Shown here: piece after piece, positions 44,659-56,859 of the stretch
How the letters are laid out: every line of letters starts with the position of its first letter
Position numbering within the stretch: position 1 is the stretch's first letter
Assembly: GCF_000689375.1 (NCBI RefSeq)
Contig: NZ_CBQZ010000001.1
Coordinates: forward strand, 186,001 to 250,000
Reading direction: 5' to 3'
Length of the DNA: 64,000 bases
Source of the DNA: Cardinium endosymbiont cBtQ1 of Bemisia tabaci
GTDB lineage: Bacteria > Bacteroidota > Bacteroidia > Cytophagales > Amoebophilaceae
Translations under genes and position numbers: made by a program
The notes under the pieces: model-generated
What the model was told of the DNA's origin: nothing
The model's input: only the letters and a program-made list of their open reading frames with translations
Databases searched by the model: none

Positions 44659-45648
44659 ATGTCTTACATCTTTTATAGATTTCCGTTAGTTCTCTTTTTT
44701 TTATTCTTATTTCCAAATTTTGTTCAAGGAAAATTGGATAAAAGGCAGTCGAATACATTGATCATCTTATTTCATGGATTGGGCAATCATGCGGCCTCTT
44801 TTAATACGATGAAAGAGAAGCTTGAACAAGCTTTTCCTGCTGTTTCTGTCGTGGCTTTGAGCAGTGTGGAAGGTATGAAGAGTATAAGCCTTTCTATAGA
44901 AGAACAAAGTGCAATTAATTTTGAAGAGCTTTCTACTAAGGTAGAAGATTTAGCGCAAAAGTCTATTATCTTGATAGGTCATAGTCAAGGTGGTCTCCGT
45001 GCATATGCTTTCCTGAGAAAATATGAACACCTTAATATAAAAGGGCTGGTGGCCTTAGCTACGCCATGGGAAGGCGTTCCTGGAGCTAGGGTAGATGCGG
45101 AAATGCTTGCACACCATTTGACAGTTCCTGTTTTGAATGATCTACGTGAACTCTCGCTTGATCTTGGTTATGCTCAAACCGATCTTGAAAAGCAACTTAT
45201 CTTAAATGTACAAGACAATCAATCAGTATGTCTTTTCCCTGGTGGTAAAGATTTGATAGAGGGTAGTGCTTTTTTACGTGAGGTCAAAAAATCACTTCCC
45301 AATGTACCTATTCCTATACTGGCCATAGGAGGTGGGCAAACTGATTTTAGTGCGTTGCTAACCAGTCGAAAACGCTATCGTTTTAAGGCTTTAAATGATA
45401 TGTATACTTTTTTTGTAGTGGGTAAAAAACACCTTAACCAGTACCATGATATGCAAATTCCCCTTTATAGCCAACATGCGTTTAATATGCTCCCTAAGGC
45501 CAAGTGCAATTTCAAAAGAGTTTTGATCAAAGACGCTTTTCATAGTACCCATGTTTTGAAGATACCGGTTCCAAAGTATAAATCCATGCTTGAACACCCT
45601 GCTGTTTTGCATGCAGTGATACAATTCGCTAAAACCATAGTTAAGTAA
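44659..45648 (+). CDS. Secreted lipase-like alpha/beta hydrolase
   Basis: The 329 residues start with a clear signal peptide (FYRFPLVLFFLFLFPNFVQG) without a lipobox cysteine, so the protein is probably exported. The lipase fold shows LIILFHGL, the nucleophile elbow LIGHSQGGLRAYAF with the catalytic Ser, and a late His in DAFHSTHVL. The Asp may lie in QTDFSALL. It is a paralogue of the lipoprotein at 10272-11606: motifs and order agree, including ATPWEG versus GTPWKG and QHAFNMLPKAKCNFKRVLI versus QHAEGCTKSNFKRIKV. It follows dnaN by 52 bases. The substrate is unknown. Confidence 0.78.
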   Translation: MSYIFYRFPLVLFFLFLFPNFVQGKLDKRQSNTLIILFHGLGNHAASFNTMKEKLEQAFPAVSVVALSSVEGMKSISLSIEEQSAINFEELSTKVEDLAQKSIILIGHSQGGLRAYAFLRKYEHLNIKGLVALATPWEGVPGARVDAEMLAHHLTVPVLNDLRELSLDLGYAQTDLEKQLILNVQDNQSVCLFPGGKDLIEGSAFLREVKKSLPNVPIPILAIGGGQTDFSALLTSRKRYRFKALNDMYTFFVVGKKHLNQYHDMQIPLYSQHAFNMLPKAKCNFKRVLIKDAFHSTHVLKIPVPKYKSMLEHPAVLHAVIQFAKTIVK

Positions 45649-46973: not shown

Positions 46974-49217
46974 TTAACCATTATTTTCTTTGCAAATCTC
47001 TATGGCCTGTTCTGCTGCGATTGTTAATGCTTCTACAATTTTAGCATTTAAATATTTCTTTGCTAGTTCAATATCTATGGTAAGCGTTTCTTGAGCCATG
47101 CATTTTAACTCATCTAAATACATATAGCTTTTAGCATGTCGTAGGTCATAAAGCCGTTCAGCCAGTTTAATACAAAGTATAAAAAGTTGTTCTCGGTTGA
47201 TTACTTGTTTAAACGAATTCTTGATATAAAGTCCACATGGTTCCATACTTTGTCGATCATTTACTGCTAAAACGTTCTCTACGAAAGAGTATATGTTCAG
47301 ATCATAATTGGCTTTAATATAAGAAAGAGGTAAATCTGCATAATGGACTAAACCATATAGTAAAGTAACATAAACAGGTTCTGGATAGAACCGGATCCAT
47401 TCTGCAACCAACTGTGCAATGCCTATCGAACGGACATACAATAATTGCCCAGATGAATGGCGCTGAAAACCATAGCACCGCCTTGTTAATAGGACTATTT
47501 CATCAATTACTGCTCTACGTGCTTCAGATATTTCTAATATTTGATTGTACGATTTAACAAATACCTCTATGGATTGATCAATTTCTTTTTGGGTTATCGG
47601 TGCATTTAAAGGGCCTATATTAGAAATCATTGCATCTCTAACATTTACTACATTATGAGGCACTACCATTAGCATAGGTCTTTTCCTAGCAATGGGAAAG
47701 CGTAGGTAGCCGTAGTGCGCACGAATGGCTCGTTCTATTACACGTTTTTCTACATGTATATGTTCTGCATTTGTATGACTATTGTGCCACTTCAGGTCTC
47801 TACCTTCTGTAATATCTTCATAATGATTTTTAATTTTGGGTAACATCATTAAAGGAGTAGTAGCGTTGCTGATTACCAATGCTATAGCTGGAAAGTTCAT
47901 TTCTGAGTGGGATGTGCCTGTTCGTGTATTCTTTTGCGTATATTTTAATTGAGTGGTATATAATTGCATTCTTATGCGTTCACTTTTTGAACCATCAAGG
48001 TTAGCAGTGTGTAAAATAGTGGGAACTAATGATTGAATCATATGATTGATATCACATGTAATTCTTTTAGGAATGGTATTGTCTTTTATTTCTATAGCTA
48101 GCTTTGGAGTTGGTGGTCCTTTAGTTTCTAGCACAGCCTCTAGTTTAGCAATCAATTCATCTATAGCAATTTCATTTGGCGTTAATAATATGTGCTCTAT
48201 ATATCTGGCACGTTGTTTTAAAAAAGCAGTAAAAGTCATAAAATTGTTGATAATGCTTTCAAGGTCTTGCTTGTAAAAGGGTCGATTGTCTAGGTATGAA
48301 ATAAGTTCGGTAGCATCTTGCATCCCTTTTTCTACAAAAGATCCAAACTTTTTTCTGTTTTTAGGAATAGCTGCTGAGTCTACATTTAGATTAGGGTTTA
48401 TAGTTTCATCTTGCCTTTTTTCTTCTCGAATTAGGTAGTTTTTAACGTAACGGTTGTAAATTTTATAAGAAGTTATTTGGCGCTTATGGTAAATGATAAT
48501 ATAAAAAACGATTAGGCCAAACAGTAGTAGATATAATAAAGAATCATTTAATGACAATAGGGTATTTAAGCCTATGTTATACATTGCATAGAAAATGATG
48601 CACAATACACCAGCTACTAGCTTTATGCTTATATAAAGGGGCAATACAAATAAGGTTGTGGATAAATGTGCTATAGATAGAGTTAGTGCAAATTGGGGGT
48701 CTTGCAACTTTGTCCAATGCCATAATACATTTATAGGAAGACAAAAAACAGAGGATACTAGCCAAAACAGACCAATTTTCCAACCTGGTTTTTTACTTTT
48801 TGGCGCTATTGCATAGGTTACAAGAGCGGTACCTACAAGAAACTGTAATATATACCAGTAAATAATAGTCTGCTCATTGATACAATCTAATACGGTGGTA
48901 AGTATAATATAACATCCTGTAAATCCAATTACTGCATCACTTGGTATCAGTTTAGCTAATTTTTCTTTTATAGAAATAAACTTTAATATATTTTTTATGT
49001 ATGCTTGTTTACTTTTGATAGATTGTTCAATCGCTTTAATTTCATGTAGAAATTGCGTGTTATCTACGTCATCTTCCTCTAATGAACTAGCAGGTAGATT
49101 CAAATAGAAAGCAATTACTAAAACGAATAGCAAAAAGGATAATGCTATAAGAAAAAATGCATAAAATGGCATTGTGCATGTGGAATAAATTGCTAAAGGA
49201 ACTAGTATAATATACAA
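46974..49217 (-). CDS. Multi-helix membrane protein with decayed kinase and pseudo-HD domains
   Basis: A member of the three-protein family described for 31977-36291. The 747 residues begin with two helices (residues 1-40), a charged linker, and about six helices (residues 95-260; for example IGFTGCYIILTTVLDCI, SSVFCLPINVLWHW). The soluble part has a helical segment, then an ATPase-like region without its motifs (CDINHMIQSLVPTILHTANL) and RAHYGYLRFP where an HGG-type glycine box would be. The C-terminus follows the RelA/SpoT HD pattern: SGQLLYVRSIGIAQLVAEW, VTLLYGLVHYADLPLSYIK and CIKLAERLYDLRHAK, with AQETLTIDIELAKKYL last. The metal-binding His, His-Asp and Asp are replaced, so hydrolase activity is not expected. 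It is full length. The closest relative is 51306-53382. Confidence 0.7.
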   Translation of the reverse strand: MYIILVPLAIYSTCTMPFYAFFLIALSFLLFVLVIAFYLNLPASSLEEDDVDNTQFLHEIKAIEQSIKSKQAYIKNILKFISIKEKLAKLIPSDAVIGFTGCYIILTTVLDCINEQTIIYWYILQFLVGTALVTYAIAPKSKKPGWKIGLFWLVSSVFCLPINVLWHWTKLQDPQFALTLSIAHLSTTLFVLPLYISIKLVAGVLCIIFYAMYNIGLNTLLSLNDSLLYLLLFGLIVFYIIIYHKRQITSYKIYNRYVKNYLIREEKRQDETINPNLNVDSAAIPKNRKKFGSFVEKGMQDATELISYLDNRPFYKQDLESIINNFMTFTAFLKQRARYIEHILLTPNEIAIDELIAKLEAVLETKGPPTPKLAIEIKDNTIPKRITCDINHMIQSLVPTILHTANLDGSKSERIRMQLYTTQLKYTQKNTRTGTSHSEMNFPAIALVISNATTPLMMLPKIKNHYEDITEGRDLKWHNSHTNAEHIHVEKRVIERAIRAHYGYLRFPIARKRPMLMVVPHNVVNVRDAMISNIGPLNAPITQKEIDQSIEVFVKSYNQILEISEARRAVIDEIVLLTRRCYGFQRHSSGQLLYVRSIGIAQLVAEWIRFYPEPVYVTLLYGLVHYADLPLSYIKANYDLNIYSFVENVLAVNDRQSMEPCGLYIKNSFKQVINREQLFILCIKLAERLYDLRHAKSYMYLDELKCMAQETLTIDIELAKKYLNAKIVEALTIAAEQAIEICKENNG

Positions 49218-49470: not shown

Positions 49471-50823
49471 TTATTTATCCATTATCTGAGCTTTGTGATC
49501 AGGTCTGTAGGAATAGTTTAGATCGTGAGGAGCGAGTCTATTGTATGCGATCTCTTCTGGAGAGGGCTCTATTCCTTTTGTTGCATTAGAATTATAAAAG
49601 TGTTTTATGAATTGTTCAAAAGTATAGTCAGATGAATCAGGTAAACTGCTAATGGCACTATTTTGGATGCCATTGATTACATAATCCACCCATTTAAGCT
49701 TTTTGGCGCGGTCACCATGCTCTTCCCAATCTCCATACATAGATTTTTCATAGAGCTTTTTATTGAATGCTTCAAGAGATATCCCCATTTTTTTAGCTAC
49801 CCTGCCTCCTAAACGCTTCCATGTTTCATGTAAATCCATATAAGTTTCTTTTGCTGCTCTGAGATTACTATGAGGATGCATGAATAAAATACCAGGTTGA
49901 TGATGTAAAATAGTAGCATTTGGATAAGCATAAGACTTAGTAGCTAGTGTAGTAATTATAGCTGCCATAGAAGCAGCCAATGATTTTACGACTACGTAAA
50001 CAGGTGCTTTACTATACTCTATAGCTTGTAAAATATTGTAGCCTGCAGTTACATATCCTCCTGGAGAGTAGCCAATAACAAGAAATATAGGATATTCTTT
50101 GTTTTGGTTATTAAAATAATGAATTTGATCTACAATATAGTTTGCTTTCCAAGGTGTAATGGTACCATTTAACTCAATACATCGATCAGAAAGCACTAAA
50201 GTATTGCTTTGCTTGATAAATGGGTCTTTTAAGTAAATAGGTTTTTTTTGAATGTATTTATGCCGAGTATTTGTCGCTTCTAAAACCTCTATTTCTGCTT
50301 TTAACCGATGGCTGGTCTCTTGCAGCAGCTGTGCTTGGCCTTTTTCTAATTGTATTTTTTTATCTATTTCAGTTAACTGGGTATGATACGGTTCCATTTC
50401 TTTCATACACCTAGCTTGCGCCAATCCTAGCTCAATAGTAAGCCTTTCTTGCTCCATATTTAACAAAAGCATAGCTTTATCATGTGCGCAGCGCACATTT
50501 TCATTTTCTATTTCCTTGTTTAGCCGTTGATGCTCCTTCTTAAGACGTAGCTGTTCAATTTGAGCAATAATAGCTGAAAGTTGTTTTTCTAAGCGTGCCC
50601 GCTCAAGTGCATTTTCTGCTTCTAGCTCATGTTGCAACTTAGTTTTGCTAATGGTATTAGTGCCATTTGTGTTAGGTTTTTTTTGTATGGTAGGAGATAC
50701 AACCGCTACTTCTTTCTTTTTACTTTTTGTCTTATCTGCTACCGCTATATTACAATACGTTAATAATATAAAAAAAGAAACCCCTAATCTTATTAATCCA
50801 CAATGATACTTCAAACCAAACAT
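49471..50823 (-). CDS. ClpP-like serine protease with signal peptide and coiled coil
   Basis: The 450 residues start with a signal peptide or anchor (LIRLGVSFFILLTYCNIAVA). A long charged coiled coil follows (about residues 60-205, runs of Glu, Lys, Leu). The C-terminal half is a ClpP/crotonase-fold protease domain: IGYSPGGYVTAGYNI fits the glycine-rich oxyanion strand of ClpP (NSPGG), SLAASMAAIITTLA holds the nucleophile Ser, ATILHHQPG the His, and MYGDWEEHGDRAKKL a likely Asp before WVDYVI. Catalytic residues thus look intact. Ordinary ClpP is cytoplasmic, about 200 residues, and has neither addition. The protein is probably exported or membrane-tethered, so it would not work with ClpX or ClpA. 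Partner and substrate are unknown. Confidence 0.75.
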   Translation of the reverse strand: MFGLKYHCGLIRLGVSFFILLTYCNIAVADKTKSKKKEVAVVSPTIQKKPNTNGTNTISKTKLQHELEAENALERARLEKQLSAIIAQIEQLRLKKEHQRLNKEIENENVRCAHDKAMLLLNMEQERLTIELGLAQARCMKEMEPYHTQLTEIDKKIQLEKGQAQLLQETSHRLKAEIEVLEATNTRHKYIQKKPIYLKDPFIKQSNTLVLSDRCIELNGTITPWKANYIVDQIHYFNNQNKEYPIFLVIGYSPGGYVTAGYNILQAIEYSKAPVYVVVKSLAASMAAIITTLATKSYAYPNATILHHQPGILFMHPHSNLRAAKETYMDLHETWKRLGGRVAKKMGISLEAFNKKLYEKSMYGDWEEHGDRAKKLKWVDYVINGIQNSAISSLPDSSDYTFEQFIKHFYNSNATKGIEPSPEEIAYNRLAPHDLNYSYRPDHKAQIMDK

Positions 50824-50865
50824 CTTAAAGTTATTTTTTAAGTTTGTAAATGATTGTTTTAAAAG

Positions 50866-50937
50866 CTGTCCGGCTAGGACTCGAACCTAGAGTCTTCTGG
50901 ACCAAAACCAGACGTGTTACCATTACACTACCGGACA
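50866..50937 (-). tRNA. tRNA-Gln (anticodon TTG)
   Basis: A cloverleaf on the minus strand: acceptor TGTCCGG/CCGGACA with discriminator G, D-arm region TAGTGTAATGGTAACAC, anticodon stem TCTGG/CCAGA with loop TTTTGGT (anticodon TTG), and T-arm with AGGTTCGAGTCCT. The unpaired-looking start T-A and the TTG anticodon are typical of tRNA-Gln. CCA is not encoded. Confidence 0.95.
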
Positions 50938-51305: not shown

Positions 51306-53382
51306 ATGTTCTTTCGTACTCTATCTTTTATTTTGGTATGCATGTTTTTATTATTGAATTCTTCTTTTTTTAAGAAAGAAGAATTGGTAAAAATTAAGCC
51401 AAATAACGCGATCATAGGATTTACAGGATGTTATGTTATATTGACTACTATATTAACGTATATACATGTCGGTCCTGTCTATTGGTATCTACTTCAATTT
51501 GTTACAGGTCTTTCGCTCATAGGTTATGCAATTAATTCCTACAAATAATTCCTACAAAAAAAAATTATCCGCCAAAATGGCGCTAGTTTGGTTGCTAAGT
51601 GTACTTTTTTGTTTTCCTGTAAATGTGCTTTGGCATTGGTCAGGGACACTCCACGGTTCATTAGCCTTTATATTGGCCTTATCTATAGCCCATTTGGCTG
51701 TAACTTTATTTATCTTACCCTTGCGTATAAGTGGACAGCTTGTAGCCTTTATGTTATTGGTGATTGTTTACGCCATATATTGTAGAGGTACGGATCTATT
51801 ATTGAAATCGTCTAATTTTTTAATATGTTTGGTGGGCTTAAGCTTAATACTTTTTTTCATTATCGTTTATCAAAAACACAAATTAGCTAACTATACAGAT
51901 TATTCAAATTATTTAAAAGAAAAACAAATTAAAGAACAGGAAATAAACCAAACTGAATTTTCTTTAAACTCCAATCTAGAAACCATTCGTGATGATCCAA
52001 AAGAAGCGGATGTTGTTATAGATCAGATGATGAAAGGGATAACAAAATTTATTGCCTATTTAGACAATAGGCCAATTTATAAGGAAGATTTAAATCTTAT
52101 TATAAATAATTTTGTTATTTGGGACATTTTTTTAAAGCAACGAGCTAGATCTAGAAATAATGTTATCTTGATACCAAGTAAAGTTAGCTTTGATGAGCTA
52201 ATTCAAAAACTAGAGGTTGGATTAGAATTGGAATGTAAGCAGCATACTATTCCGAAGTTCATGATAGGGTCTAAAGATGATAAACTGCCTGAAAAAATTA
52301 TATGTGATGTAAACCAGGTAGTTTCCTTATTGACATCTGTTCTACTAAGCATGGCTAGTTTAGATACTTCAAATGGGTTTGTAAGCATTCAATGCTATAC
52401 TACTTATTTAGAATATGAGTTGGCACGATTTTCTGAAGATAAATCTACTACAGATGTGCGGTTTCCTGCTATAGCCCTAGTAATTGGTCATGGGGCTATT
52501 CCTGAAGAAGCGTTACCTAAAATTAAAAATTGTTATCAAAATATTGCGGGAGATAGTCAATTCAATTGGCATAGTGTAGTTCAAAAAGAATCAGAATGGG
52601 CTAACATAGAAAAGCGTAATATACAGCAGATTGTTCGTACCCATTATGGTTATTTACAGTTTCCAACTTCTCCTAAAAAACCTATGCTTGTAGTACTTCC
52701 TTGTAACGTAGCTGCTGTGCGGGATAAAATGATTGCTGCTATAATACCTTCAAGTACTTTTATTGGCTCTAAGGAACTCAAGATATCTATGATCGTTTTA
52801 AAGAAGGCTTATAACAGTCTTTGCACACTGGCTGATATGCGTCCGACTGTATTAGATGAACTTTTTTTATTGATAAGGCGTTGTTATGGTTTTAGGCGTC
52901 ATGCGTCAGGACAATTATTCTATGTCCGTGCATTAGGTATTGCTGAATTAGTAGCAAAGTGGGTACCTTATCAACCTAAACCAGTTTATTTTAGTTTACT
53001 TTATGGCTTGGTACGTTATGGAGGCTTACCACTTCCTTATGTTAAAGCCAATTATAGTATAGACGTTTATTCCTTTATAGAAAATATTATCTCTGTCAAT
53101 AAGCGCCAAGATATGGAGCCATGTGGACTTTATATAGGTAGTCGCCTTAAACGGATCATCAACAGAGAACAACTTTTTATACCTTGTATTAAATTTGCTG
53201 AACGACTTTATGATTTACGTCATGCTAAAGACTATACTTCTTTAGAAGAAGTAAAGCATATGGCTCAAGAAACGCTTACAATAGATGTTGAACTTGGGAA
53301 AAAGTATTTAAATGCAAACATCGTAGAAGAATTAGTAGAAGCAGCCAACCAGGCGCTCCAGGCTTGTAAAGGTATATGTTAG
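51306..53382 (+). pseudogene. Membrane / decayed-kinase / pseudo-HD protein broken by a 13-bp tandem duplication
   Basis: The gene is the paralogue of 46974-49217. Frame one (51306-51548) has the first helices (NNAIIGFTGCYVILTTILTY, WYLLQFVTGLSLIGYAI) and then stops. Frame two (51526-53382) has the remaining helices (SVLFCFPVNVLWHW) and the soluble part: DVNQVVSLLTSVLLSMASLD, RTHYGYLQFP, SGQLFYVRALGIAELVAKW, FSLLYGLVRYGGLPLPYVK and CIKFAERLYDLRHAK, ending AQETLTIDVELGKKYLNANI. The switch is an exact tandem repeat TAATTCCTACAAA at 51533-51558. Removing one copy gives AINSYKKKLSAKM in one frame. As in the paralogue, HD metal residues are replaced. Frame two alone could still be made from an internal start such as the ATG at 51577. 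Confidence 0.8.
51533..51558. repeat. 13-bp perfect tandem duplication causing a frameshift
   Basis: TAATTCCTACAAA occurs twice in direct succession (51533-51545, 51546-51558). The extra 13 bases shift the plus-strand frame and create a TAA stop at 51546-51548. Confidence 0.92.
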
Positions 53383-55112: not shown

Positions 55113-55628
55113 TTACCAATTATCTATGGATTTGTTACAAATATCATCCACTAGTTGACGGAAGATTTCTTTAATCAATTGATTTTCTTTTTCATTATGA
55201 TTTTCAGTAGAAAGCATATCAGCACTGGCTGAAAATGATTTTTTATTAAAAGAGGATGTTTCATCAGAAGGATTGATGAAGGAAACTTCTACGGTTATGG
55301 TTAGGCGTTGTATTTCTTTAGGATTATCTTTATCCTCGCTTTTGGTACTGAAAGTTGTACGATATGAAAAGGACTTAATCACCCCTTCGTACTGGATGTC
55401 ACCATCTTTATCTTGTTTGGTTAAGGACGTTAGCCGTAATATCTTTGATTCAAGTGCTTCAGTAAGCTTTTTTGGTAAATCTGTTGGTCCATCTGATGTC
55501 TCTGTATAAAACTCCTGAATAGAAAAAGTTTGTATATCACCAGGGAGTGAAACCCCTGAGAAAGTAAAAAGACCACAACCATGCAGCCAAAATAGGCTAA
55601 ATAGAAAGTATAGGTTACGGTTTAACAT
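55113..55628 (-). CDS. lptE: LptE-like LPS-assembly lipoprotein
   Basis: This lipoprotein has the Bacteroidota LptE pattern; LptE plugs the LptD barrel that places lipopolysaccharide in the outer membrane. The start at 55628 (MLNRNLYFLFSLFWLHGCGL) gives a signal peptide with lipobox HGC; six codons upstream another ATG exists. GVSLPGDIQTFSIQEFYTE and a C-terminal helix (ENQLIKEIFRQLVDDI) fit the family. It overlaps the end of the sigma-54 activator gene by 14 bases. Its presence suggests the symbiont still exports an LPS-like glycolipid, although no lipid A genes are seen here. Confidence 0.82.
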   Translation of the reverse strand: MLNRNLYFLFSLFWLHGCGLFTFSGVSLPGDIQTFSIQEFYTETSDGPTDLPKKLTEALESKILRLTSLTKQDKDGDIQYEGVIKSFSYRTTFSTKSEDKDNPKEIQRLTITVEVSFINPSDETSSFNKKSFSASADMLSTENHNEKENQLIKEIFRQLVDDICNKSIDNW

Positions 55629-56859
55629 TGAACTCTTCAATCTCATATTGTTTAATTTTTCGATAAAGCGTTCTTTCAGAAATCCCTAAATCATCAGCTG
55701 CATTTTTACGATTTCCATGGTTTTTTTGCAGGGATCTACGAATTAAAGCCTGTTCTTGGGCTTCAATGGATAGGTTTTCTGTTTTATGGGATGCGTCTGT
55801 GCAATTTAGGCGATCTTCTTTAAAAGATTGTGCTATTTCTAATAGATGGATCTGTTTGGCTATATTTTTTGCGTCACTATGGGTGCTGAATAGGCGTGTG
55901 TCTTCTTTTATAATAGGGTGATTTATAGCACCAGACCCCATTAAATTAAATAGTAACGCTTTTAATTCTGCGATATCTCTTTTCAAATCAAATAAAATAG
56001 GATAAATATATTCTTTTTCAAGTAGCTCATTATTGTTCCATTTTTTATAAAGTACCGGTAAGGTATGGTTTTGTACTTTTGGTAAATACTTTGCCAATAC
56101 CTCTGGTGTGACCATTACTACTTCTTCAAGAAGTGCCATTTGTTCTACAATATTTTTTAATTGACGGATATTACCTGGAAATGGGTAGGTACATAAAATA
56201 TCTTTTGCTTCTGTACTGATTTCTATTGGTTTAGTGCGATACTTGATAGCAAAATCACTAGAAAATTTGTGAAACAATTGTATAATATCTGCACCTCGTT
56301 CACGGAGAGGGGGTATGGTAATGGGAACAGTATTGAGTCTGTAATACAAGTCTTCTCGAAATTTACGCTGTTGAATGGCATGGACTAAGTCTACATGGGT
56401 AGCAGCCACTACACGCACTTTGGTTTTTTGTACACTAGCGCCACCTACTTTTATATATTCTCCATATTCTAATACCCGTAAAAGTCTGGTTTGGGTCCCC
56501 AAAGGCATTTCACCTATTTCATCTAGAAAGATGGTACCCCCATTGGCTTCTTCAAAGTAGCCTTTTCGGCTTTCTAATGCACCTGTAAAGGAACCTTTTT
56601 CATGGCCAAAAAGTTCAGCGTCTATTGTGCCTTCTGGAATGGCTCCACAGTTAATAGCTATAAATTTACCATGTCGGAAGGGACTGAGTCCATGAATAAT
56701 TTTTGAAAAAGATTCTTTTCCAGTACCACTTTCACCCATAATTAAAACAGATAAGTCAGTAGAAGCTACCTGTATGGCTACCTCAACCGCTCTATTCAAC
56801 AATGGTGCATTGCCAATAATATTAAACCGTTGCTTGATGTATTGAAGATCTTCTTTCAT
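55615..56859 (-). CDS. Sigma-54-dependent transcriptional activator without receiver domain
   Basis: This AAA+ bacterial enhancer-binding protein remodels RNA polymerase with sigma-54. The 414 residues begin almost directly with the AAA+ domain: Walker A IMGESGTGKESFSKIIHG, the sigma-54 contact loop GSFTGALESRKGYFEEA, Walker B GGTIFLDEIGEM and RLNTVPITIPPLRERGADI. The C-terminus has a Fis-type helix-turn-helix (NRKNAADDLGISERTLYRKI). There is no N-terminal receiver or sensor domain, so control must come from another route. It lies 4 bases after miaB and overlaps lptE, an order known in Bacteroidota. rpoN is not in the window. Confidence 0.92.
   Translation of the reverse strand: MKEDLQYIKQRFNIIGNAPLLNRAVEVAIQVASTDLSVLIMGESGTGKESFSKIIHGLSPFRHGKFIAINCGAIPEGTIDAELFGHEKGSFTGALESRKGYFEEANGGTIFLDEIGEMPLGTQTRLLRVLEYGEYIKVGGASVQKTKVRVVAATHVDLVHAIQQRKFREDLYYRLNTVPITIPPLRERGADIIQLFHKFSSDFAIKYRTKPIEISTEAKDILCTYPFPGNIRQLKNIVEQMALLEEVVMVTPEVLAKYLPKVQNHTLPVLYKKWNNNELLEKEYIYPILFDLKRDIAELKALLFNLMGSGAINHPIIKEDTRLFSTHSDAKNIAKQIHLLEIAQSFKEDRLNCTDASHKTENLSIEAQEQALIRRSLQKNHGNRKNAADDLGISERTLYRKIKQYEIEEFNVKP

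Follow-up and report, generated by a model that had tools for sequence, protein, structure and literature searches.

A predicted exported ClpP-type protease with a long helical stalk in Cardinium and in several distant bacterial phyla

The locus and the layout of its product

The gene described here lies in a window of 64,000 nucleotides (the whole stretch of DNA analysed) of the Cardinium endosymbiont cBtQ1 of Bemisia tabaci, and encodes a predicted exported ClpP-type protease of 450 amino acids, the parts of which are collected in Table 1. The open reading frame given in the preliminary description proved to be real and its coordinates exact; it is read from the minus strand. It is not a chance reading frame, since comparison with the nearest orthologue yields a dN/dS of 0.27 overall, 0.22 for the helix and 0.26 for the ClpP domain; judged by these substitution rates, the helix is under purifying selection.

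Table 1. Features of the gene and of its product, in window coordinates
Feature	Position	Strand	Basis or remark
Whole gene, exported ClpP-type protease (predicted)	49471..50823	-	450 codons + stop
Sec signal peptide (predicted), residues 1-29, AVA/D cleavage site	50737..50823	-	sequence; helix 7-23 in AlphaFold model
Linker, unstructured, residues 30-57	50653..50736	-	pLDDT <50 for residues 27-60
Long single helix (stalk), residues 60-190	50254..50646	-	AlphaFold model
ClpP catalytic domain, residues 208-385, handle helix 321-346	49669..50202	-	Pfam, AlphaFold, structure comparison
Catalytic Ser285 codon	49969..49971	-	alignment with ClpP triad
Catalytic His308 codon	49900..49902	-	alignment with ClpP triad
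Catalytic Asp365 codon	49729..49731	-	alignment; Asn or Glu in 4/104 rows
C-terminal extension, residues 386-450, with tail motif	49474..49668	-	pLDDT 83 for residues 431-440
tRNA-Gln, neighbour outside the protein	50865..50937	-	41 bases upstream of the start codon

Two similar genes, paralogues as judged by eye, flank the ClpP-type gene: one at 46974-49217 (minus strand), with a weak match to HD_4 (23.7 bits, below the cut-off of 27.2), the other at 51306-53382 (plus strand), divided between two frames that encode 80 and 618 amino acids. Further out, an open reading frame at 44659-45648 (plus strand) begins with an apparent signal peptide, recognized by eye, and is similar to palmitoyl-protein thioesterases (PF02089, 43.7 bits, cut-off 26.8); these are eukaryote-type enzymes, and its predicted product could act on host proteins. 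On the other side, at 55113-55646 (minus strand), lies an LptE-like gene (PF04390, 46.8 bits, cut-off 23), a part of the lipopolysaccharide assembly machinery in a small symbiont genome.

The signal peptide postulated in the preliminary description is borne out by a hydrophobic stretch ending at the AVA/D site (residues 27-29). A simple, home-made signal peptide test, in which starts were chosen for hydrophobicity, so that pass figures are optimistic, was passed by the window protein, by 12 of the 16 Amoebophilaceae sequences (window included) and by 86 of 87 more distant relatives, the 88th (first copy at L086) being cut at its start and left out; as a control, the same test with the same choice of starts was passed by 100 of 239 neighbouring genes. 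The second copy at L074 (L074:3297-4640) carries a lipobox-like LLGGC in place of the AXA site, and may be a lipoprotein.

The AlphaFold model, a monomer built with 56 sequences (mean pLDDT 81.1, pTM 0.59), shows between linker and ClpP domain one continuous helix of 131 residues; its pLDDT in ten-residue blocks is 81-94 over residues 71-180, with 67 and 71 at the ends. A coiled coil of about 145 residues had been expected here: the long helix stands, if a little shorter, while a strict coiled coil finds no support, as neither the heptad nor any other period is significant in the window helix by a simple spectral test. Across the family, the mean of the same test peaks at 115 degrees. This agrees with a harmonic of the 25-residue period brought out by a further family-wide scan, the Z values of which are overstated because its rows are related. 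When periods were compared row by row, 25 residues came out best in 29 of 56 rows (29 of the 40 outside Amoebophilaceae, none of the 16 inside), and reaches p < 0.05 in 38 of 56 rows, including 5 of 16 Amoebophilaceae (p 0.26 for the window protein); correction over all periods from 5 to 40 leaves p < 0.05 in only 4 of those 29 rows. In some relatives (L079, L065 and L104), the helix consists of rows of 25-residue repeats, close to ENKLxxEKxKxxIAxLxxELxKLxL, the number of which varies between species: the helix measures 179 residues in L065 and 204 in L079, a difference of exactly one repeat. At the opposite end of the protein, the tail holds a motif which in many relatives approaches LPxLxPFDxYxLYNPDxYYR and reads APHDLNYSYRPDHK in the window protein.

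ClpP fold, catalytic triad and contact residues

Residues 208-357 match the CLP_protease family (PF00574) with 76.8 bits against a cut-off of 20.2 (E 2.5e-21), and the same family is found at E <= 0.01 in all 56 members of the family alignment, bit score and cut-off referring to the first member only. The ClpP domain is modelled with a pLDDT of 89-98 in ten-residue blocks, except for 73 at residues 311-320. When the model was compared with known structures, the best 50 entries were all ClpP (Z 21.8-22.2, 165-180 residues aligned), other folds being possible further down than these 50 matches; Foldseek likewise pointed to the ClpP fold.

Many of these structure alignments begin at model residues 180-192, opposite chain residues 3-21 of ClpP: the end of the helix thus meets the place of ClpP's own N-terminus, which according to PMC9035409 lies at the axial pore. 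If a ring is formed, the helix would stand on its pore face.

No more specific family could be assigned. The window protein scores 53.2 bits with the clpP equivalog TIGR00493, below the cut-off of 308.6 (best E among the 56 members 8.3e-18); no NCBIfam model exceeds its cut-off for the window protein, the best E among the other 55 members being 1.4e-21, and neither in Pfam nor in NCBIfam was a family-specific model found. Profiles of other ClpP-fold proteins also remain under their cut-offs: SppA_dom (25.9 bits, cut-off 155.45), NfeD1b (16.4, cut-off 40), SDH protease (18.6, cut-off 31.3), NF047768 (20.7, cut-off 250) and the phage head maturation protease NF045542 (39.4, cut-off 120). PHROG 94 is matched with an E of 4e-11. 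The protein had been regarded from the start as distinct from cytoplasmic ClpP and from the NfeD and SppA types, and these scores agree with that view.

The window protein has a true ClpP domain with a complete Ser-His-Asp triad, the Asp of which had previously been considered only probable: Ser285, His308 and Asp365 align with the triad of 20 ClpP sequences having no stalk. Conservation was followed over 104 rows, 16 from Amoebophilaceae and 88 from more distant relatives (E < 1e-30, loci L058-L113 without L061), some of them incomplete: the second copy at L109 is cut before the triad, while L017, the second copy at L064 and L100 end early. Ser is kept in 102 rows, a count biased upward because the rows were collected by a profile search in which one of the two peptide patterns holds the catalytic Ser, His in 102 and Asp in 98. 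The losses of Ser and His are due to one truncated row and one dead copy; in the 4 rows having Asn or Glu in place of Asp365, Ser and His are intact.

Residues other than the triad were compared in 56 rows, namely the 16 Amoebophilaceae and 40 of the 88 others, hand-picked for spread, against the 20 stalk-less sequences, which were taken as housekeeping ClpPs, some of them forming a second clade in the tree. In the family, the SPGG loop retains its two glycines. The Arg beside the catalytic Asp, which we take to be the oligomerisation sensor residue (Arg170 position), is Arg in 20 of 20 stalk-less rows, versus Gly in 53 and Ala in 3 of the 56 family rows. Similarly, the Tyr62 position, Tyr in all 20 stalk-less rows, is Val in 47 and Ile in 7 family rows, and the Met92 position is Lys in 53 and Arg in 2 of them, versus neither in any of the 20 stalk-less rows, where it is mostly Thr (14/20) rather than Met. 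Among the positions of the ATPase-docking pocket, four are still hydrophobic or aromatic: 247 (Phe in 56 of 56), 278 (Val in 54), 298 (Tyr or Phe in 56) and 300 (Tyr or Phe in 54). In the QXT motif, Asn occupies the place of Gln in 55 of 56 family rows, but Gln itself is found in only 9 of the 20 stalk-less rows; the third position is Thr in 37 of 56.

At the N-terminal side of the domain, the model of the window protein predicts no helix between residues 191 and 207, and a profile built from the stalk-less rows, 228 positions long, finds its first match in the window protein at position 54, so that the N-terminal segment is unrecognisable there; among the 56 rows, however, 25 are matched from position 41 or earlier. 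Family rows were cut at residue 195 in the residue alignment, which covers the sequence downstream of this point. According to PMC9035409, the N-terminal segment of ClpP serves the axial pore and ATPase contact, docking of the ATPase takes place at the H sites, and the two rings are joined through the oligomerisation sensor and the QXT motif. A clean loss of axial loop and ATPase pocket was considered but does not follow, given the four hydrophobic or aromatic pocket positions and the N-terminal matches in 25 rows. The ATPase-docking pocket appears partly changed, and the evidence for a lost ATPase contact is mixed; with residues of the ring contact altered, the protein may fail to form a double ring.

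Compared with ClpP, family S14 of MEROPS, the window protein has the same fold, the same order of Ser, His and Asp and the same handle helix, while adding a signal peptide, a helix of 130 residues before the domain and the C-terminal tail motif; the family differs further in the Gly or Ala replacing the Arg beside the catalytic Asp, and in the partly changed docking pocket. SppA (S49) acts in the envelope by means of a ClpP-like fold, a Ser-Lys dyad and a membrane anchor; the window protein, in contrast, keeps the Ser-His-Asp triad. NfeD/1510-N and SDH proteases are ClpP-fold relatives, weakly matched by profile, and are not known to have a long helix or a tail motif such as those of the window protein. 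The ClpP core is also common to the window protein and the ClpP-like head maturation proteases of phages.

In the literature searched, for the most part outside subscription papers, neither a description of an exported or membrane ClpP class of such make-up nor a match to an already described membrane class was found. The accessible parts of PMC12419801, PMC5698495, PMC3486910 and PMC9035409 do not describe a protein of the window type; a secreted protein combining PDZ and ClpP-like domains does appear in PMC12419801, its make-up being different. With moderate confidence, we regard the protein as a member of an extracytoplasmic branch of the ClpP (S14) peptidases, so far without a name: fold and peptidase type are known, while no description of the branch was met with in these searches.

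Occurrence, gene copies and tree

Full-length or nearly full-length orthologues, 34-84 % identical, were found in 16 of 21 Amoebophilaceae genomes, that of the window included, and in all 8 sampled genomes of the window's genus; the copy of G020 runs off its contig. Within Bacteroidota the gene is seen only in this family. None of the 36 genomes from other families of the order yielded a full-length match, the hits obtained in 34 of them beginning no earlier than residue 178, and in a Bacteroidota sample the only match at E <= 1e-30 among the candidates scored, 1 out of 395 genomes, was the window's own genome. A search for the same architecture in other Bacteroidota symbionts, as had been suggested, was thus fruitful within Amoebophilaceae and fruitless in the genomes sampled elsewhere in the phylum.

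As a feature of Bacteroidota symbionts, the framing of the preliminary description, the protein is too narrowly seen, since it is also present in Verrucomicrobiota, Planctomycetota, Elusimicrobiota and Thiotrichales. Search of genome contigs with the single protein returned no relative; profile search of the same contigs detected 65 loci: 10 Amoebophilaceae-like by label or position, 34 from Verrucomicrobiota (mostly Opitutae), 11 from Elusimicrobiota, 5 from Planctomycetota, 4 from Thiotrichales (Beggiatoa, Thioploca and kin, Gammaproteobacteria) and one labelled only 'bacterium'. Relatives complete enough to be judged feature signal peptide (86 of 87), helix, ClpP domain and tail. In genome samples, each around a centre genome picked as a carrier of the gene and labelled after the group of its locus, the frequency at E <= 1e-30 is at least 21 of 288 in Verrucomicrobiota, 7 of 246 in Planctomycetota, 12 of 149 in Elusimicrobiota and 3 of 229 (two already known) in the class of the Beggiatoa genome, these counts being lower bounds because only part of the first-look candidates was scored. 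No relative was confirmed on viral contigs, and plasmids yielded ordinary clpP only, in 2 records.

Amoebophilaceae carriers have one copy each, while two tandem copies occur in 34 of the 55 loci outside this family, that is in 33 of the 34 Verrucomicrobiota loci and in L106, the locus labelled only 'bacterium'; the Beggiatoa genome has 3 matches. Tandem pairs were considered as a rule for Verrucomicrobiota and rejected, the paired loci being mostly Opitutae: in an even sample of Verrucomicrobiota genomes two matches were found in only 6 of 21 carriers, adjacent in 5, these counts again being lower bounds. In all readable pairs both copies carry the triad, except at L113, where the first gene (L113:3881-5200) is a dead copy in which Ser, His and Asp are replaced by Gly, Glu and Gln, next to an intact partner (L113:5314-6714). 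Tandem genes, in one case active plus dead, recall the mixed systems ClpP1/ClpP2 and ClpP/ClpR, from which the window family differs in its predicted export, in its stalks and in being single-copy in Amoebophilaceae.

No neighbour gene is common across phyla among the 65 loci. In Opitutae loci, a Prc/Tsp-like gene lies nearby in 7 of 65, a rhomboid-like one in 6 of 65 (both recognized by eye) and an ordinary ClpP in six, a neighbourhood which fits envelope proteolysis. The window's own genome contains a separate ordinary ClpP and, as judged by eye, a separate SppA-like gene. The idea that the protein is the sole periplasmic protease of the symbiont was discarded: a DegP-type protease (PF13365), which coexists with the exported ClpP, occurs in 20 of 21 Amoebophilaceae, G000 included, and the S41/Prc type (PF03572), present in 9 of 21 Amoebophilaceae and in none of the 8 genomes of the window's genus, is found in some genomes together with the exported ClpP, while others have neither.

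In a quick tree, with SH-aLRT as the support measure in place of bootstrap, a long branch (support 100) parts the family from the stalk-less ClpP rows. Verrucomicrobiota form one group (98), and 14 of the 16 Amoebophilaceae rows are grouped at 87; the other two, L018 and L019, are long branches outside this main group.

Possible mechanism, alternatives and significance

The reading that we prefer, and to which we give about equal shares of credence and doubt, is that of an ATP-independent, extracytoplasmic ClpP ring, bearing helical stalks at its pore face and engaged in the turnover of envelope proteins and peptides. Judging from the signal sequences found across phyla, Sec would export the protein in vivo and the signal peptide would be removed. 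The ClpP domain, modelled here as a monomer, would probably assemble into rings via its handle helix. Each subunit would contribute a helix of about 130 residues, some 20 nm long if fully extended, and, since the helix ends at the ClpP N-terminus and axial pore, one would expect a bundle or crown of helices to stand out from the pore face. Such a crown, rather than ClpX or ClpA, may gate the pore, fix the ring in the envelope, or capture unfolded chains or peptides, because the docking pocket and ring contact are partly changed and no ATP is expected outside the cytoplasm. Captured chains and peptides would then be cut at the Ser-His-Asp sites, and damaged or leftover envelope proteins and peptides may be turned over in this way.

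The best surviving alternative, which we nevertheless hold to be unlikely, is that of a scaffold or oligopeptidase: the ClpP ring would mainly order the stalks as an envelope spacer or ruler, cutting being secondary or confined to small peptides. A helix which, between the two nearest orthologues, is constrained to about the same degree as the ClpP domain, built in some species of 25-residue repeats and changing in length by a whole repeat, would suit such a device, as would the variation of Asp365 and the dead tandem copy. The dead copy has, however, an intact partner, and the preservation of Ser and His in 102 of 104 rows goes beyond the needs of a scaffold, even if the Ser count is raised by the search pattern.

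That the protease is exported past the outer membrane to cut host proteins appears improbable. Amoebophilaceae are intracellular symbionts, and the fact that 16 of 21 genomes of the family, among them all 8 from the window's genus, carry the gene and keep it at a size of 0.9-1.5 Mb would agree with such a role, but a signal peptide by itself leads to the periplasm, and the same architecture is found in Verrucomicrobiota, Planctomycetota, Elusimicrobiota and Beggiatoa-type bacteria. Together with the rest of Thiotrichales, these groups are for the most part free-living, which makes it unlikely that the protease is generally aimed at host proteins, an option raised in the preliminary description that found no support here.

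Still more improbable is a cytoplasmic ClpP paralogue working with ClpX or ClpC, the hydrophobic N-terminus being a signal peptide that does not work. Fold, triad and the several docking-pocket positions still hydrophobic would all be at home in such a protein; against it stand the 86 of 87 distant relatives passing the signal test, the changed Arg170 and Tyr62 positions, the separate ordinary ClpP of the same genome and the long branch that sets the family apart in the tree. That the protein should be a signal peptide peptidase diverged from the SppA, NfeD or SDH type is scarcely credible, as the weak profile similarity to these three types lies entirely under the curated cut-offs, the His and Asp of the ClpP triad are kept and a separate SppA-like gene, recognized by eye, is present in the same genome.

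An ATP-independent extracytoplasmic ClpP ring thus remains our preferred reading. Rather more doubtful, and advanced only tentatively, is its fullest form, a self-compartmentalising exported ring in which a crown of repeat helices takes over from the AAA+ ATPase. Such a Clp machine would operate without ATP in the bacterial envelope of five phyla, and some of these may have rings that mix active with dead subunits.

ClpP, a drug target, is known from textbooks as the core of an ATP-dependent protease of the cytoplasm. The family described here is probably hidden under plain Clp protease names, because no family-specific model was found. An exported branch having both the catalytic machinery and a conserved stalk, with a ring-contact residue and part of the ATPase-docking surface altered, lets the ATPase-free work of ClpP barrels in the envelope be put to the test, and every one of the 8 genomes sampled from the window's genus has retained the gene, although these are near 1 Mb in size. 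The recurrence of the same design in several distant phyla suggests a protein-cutting device operating outside the cytoplasm, without the usual ATP-driven partner.
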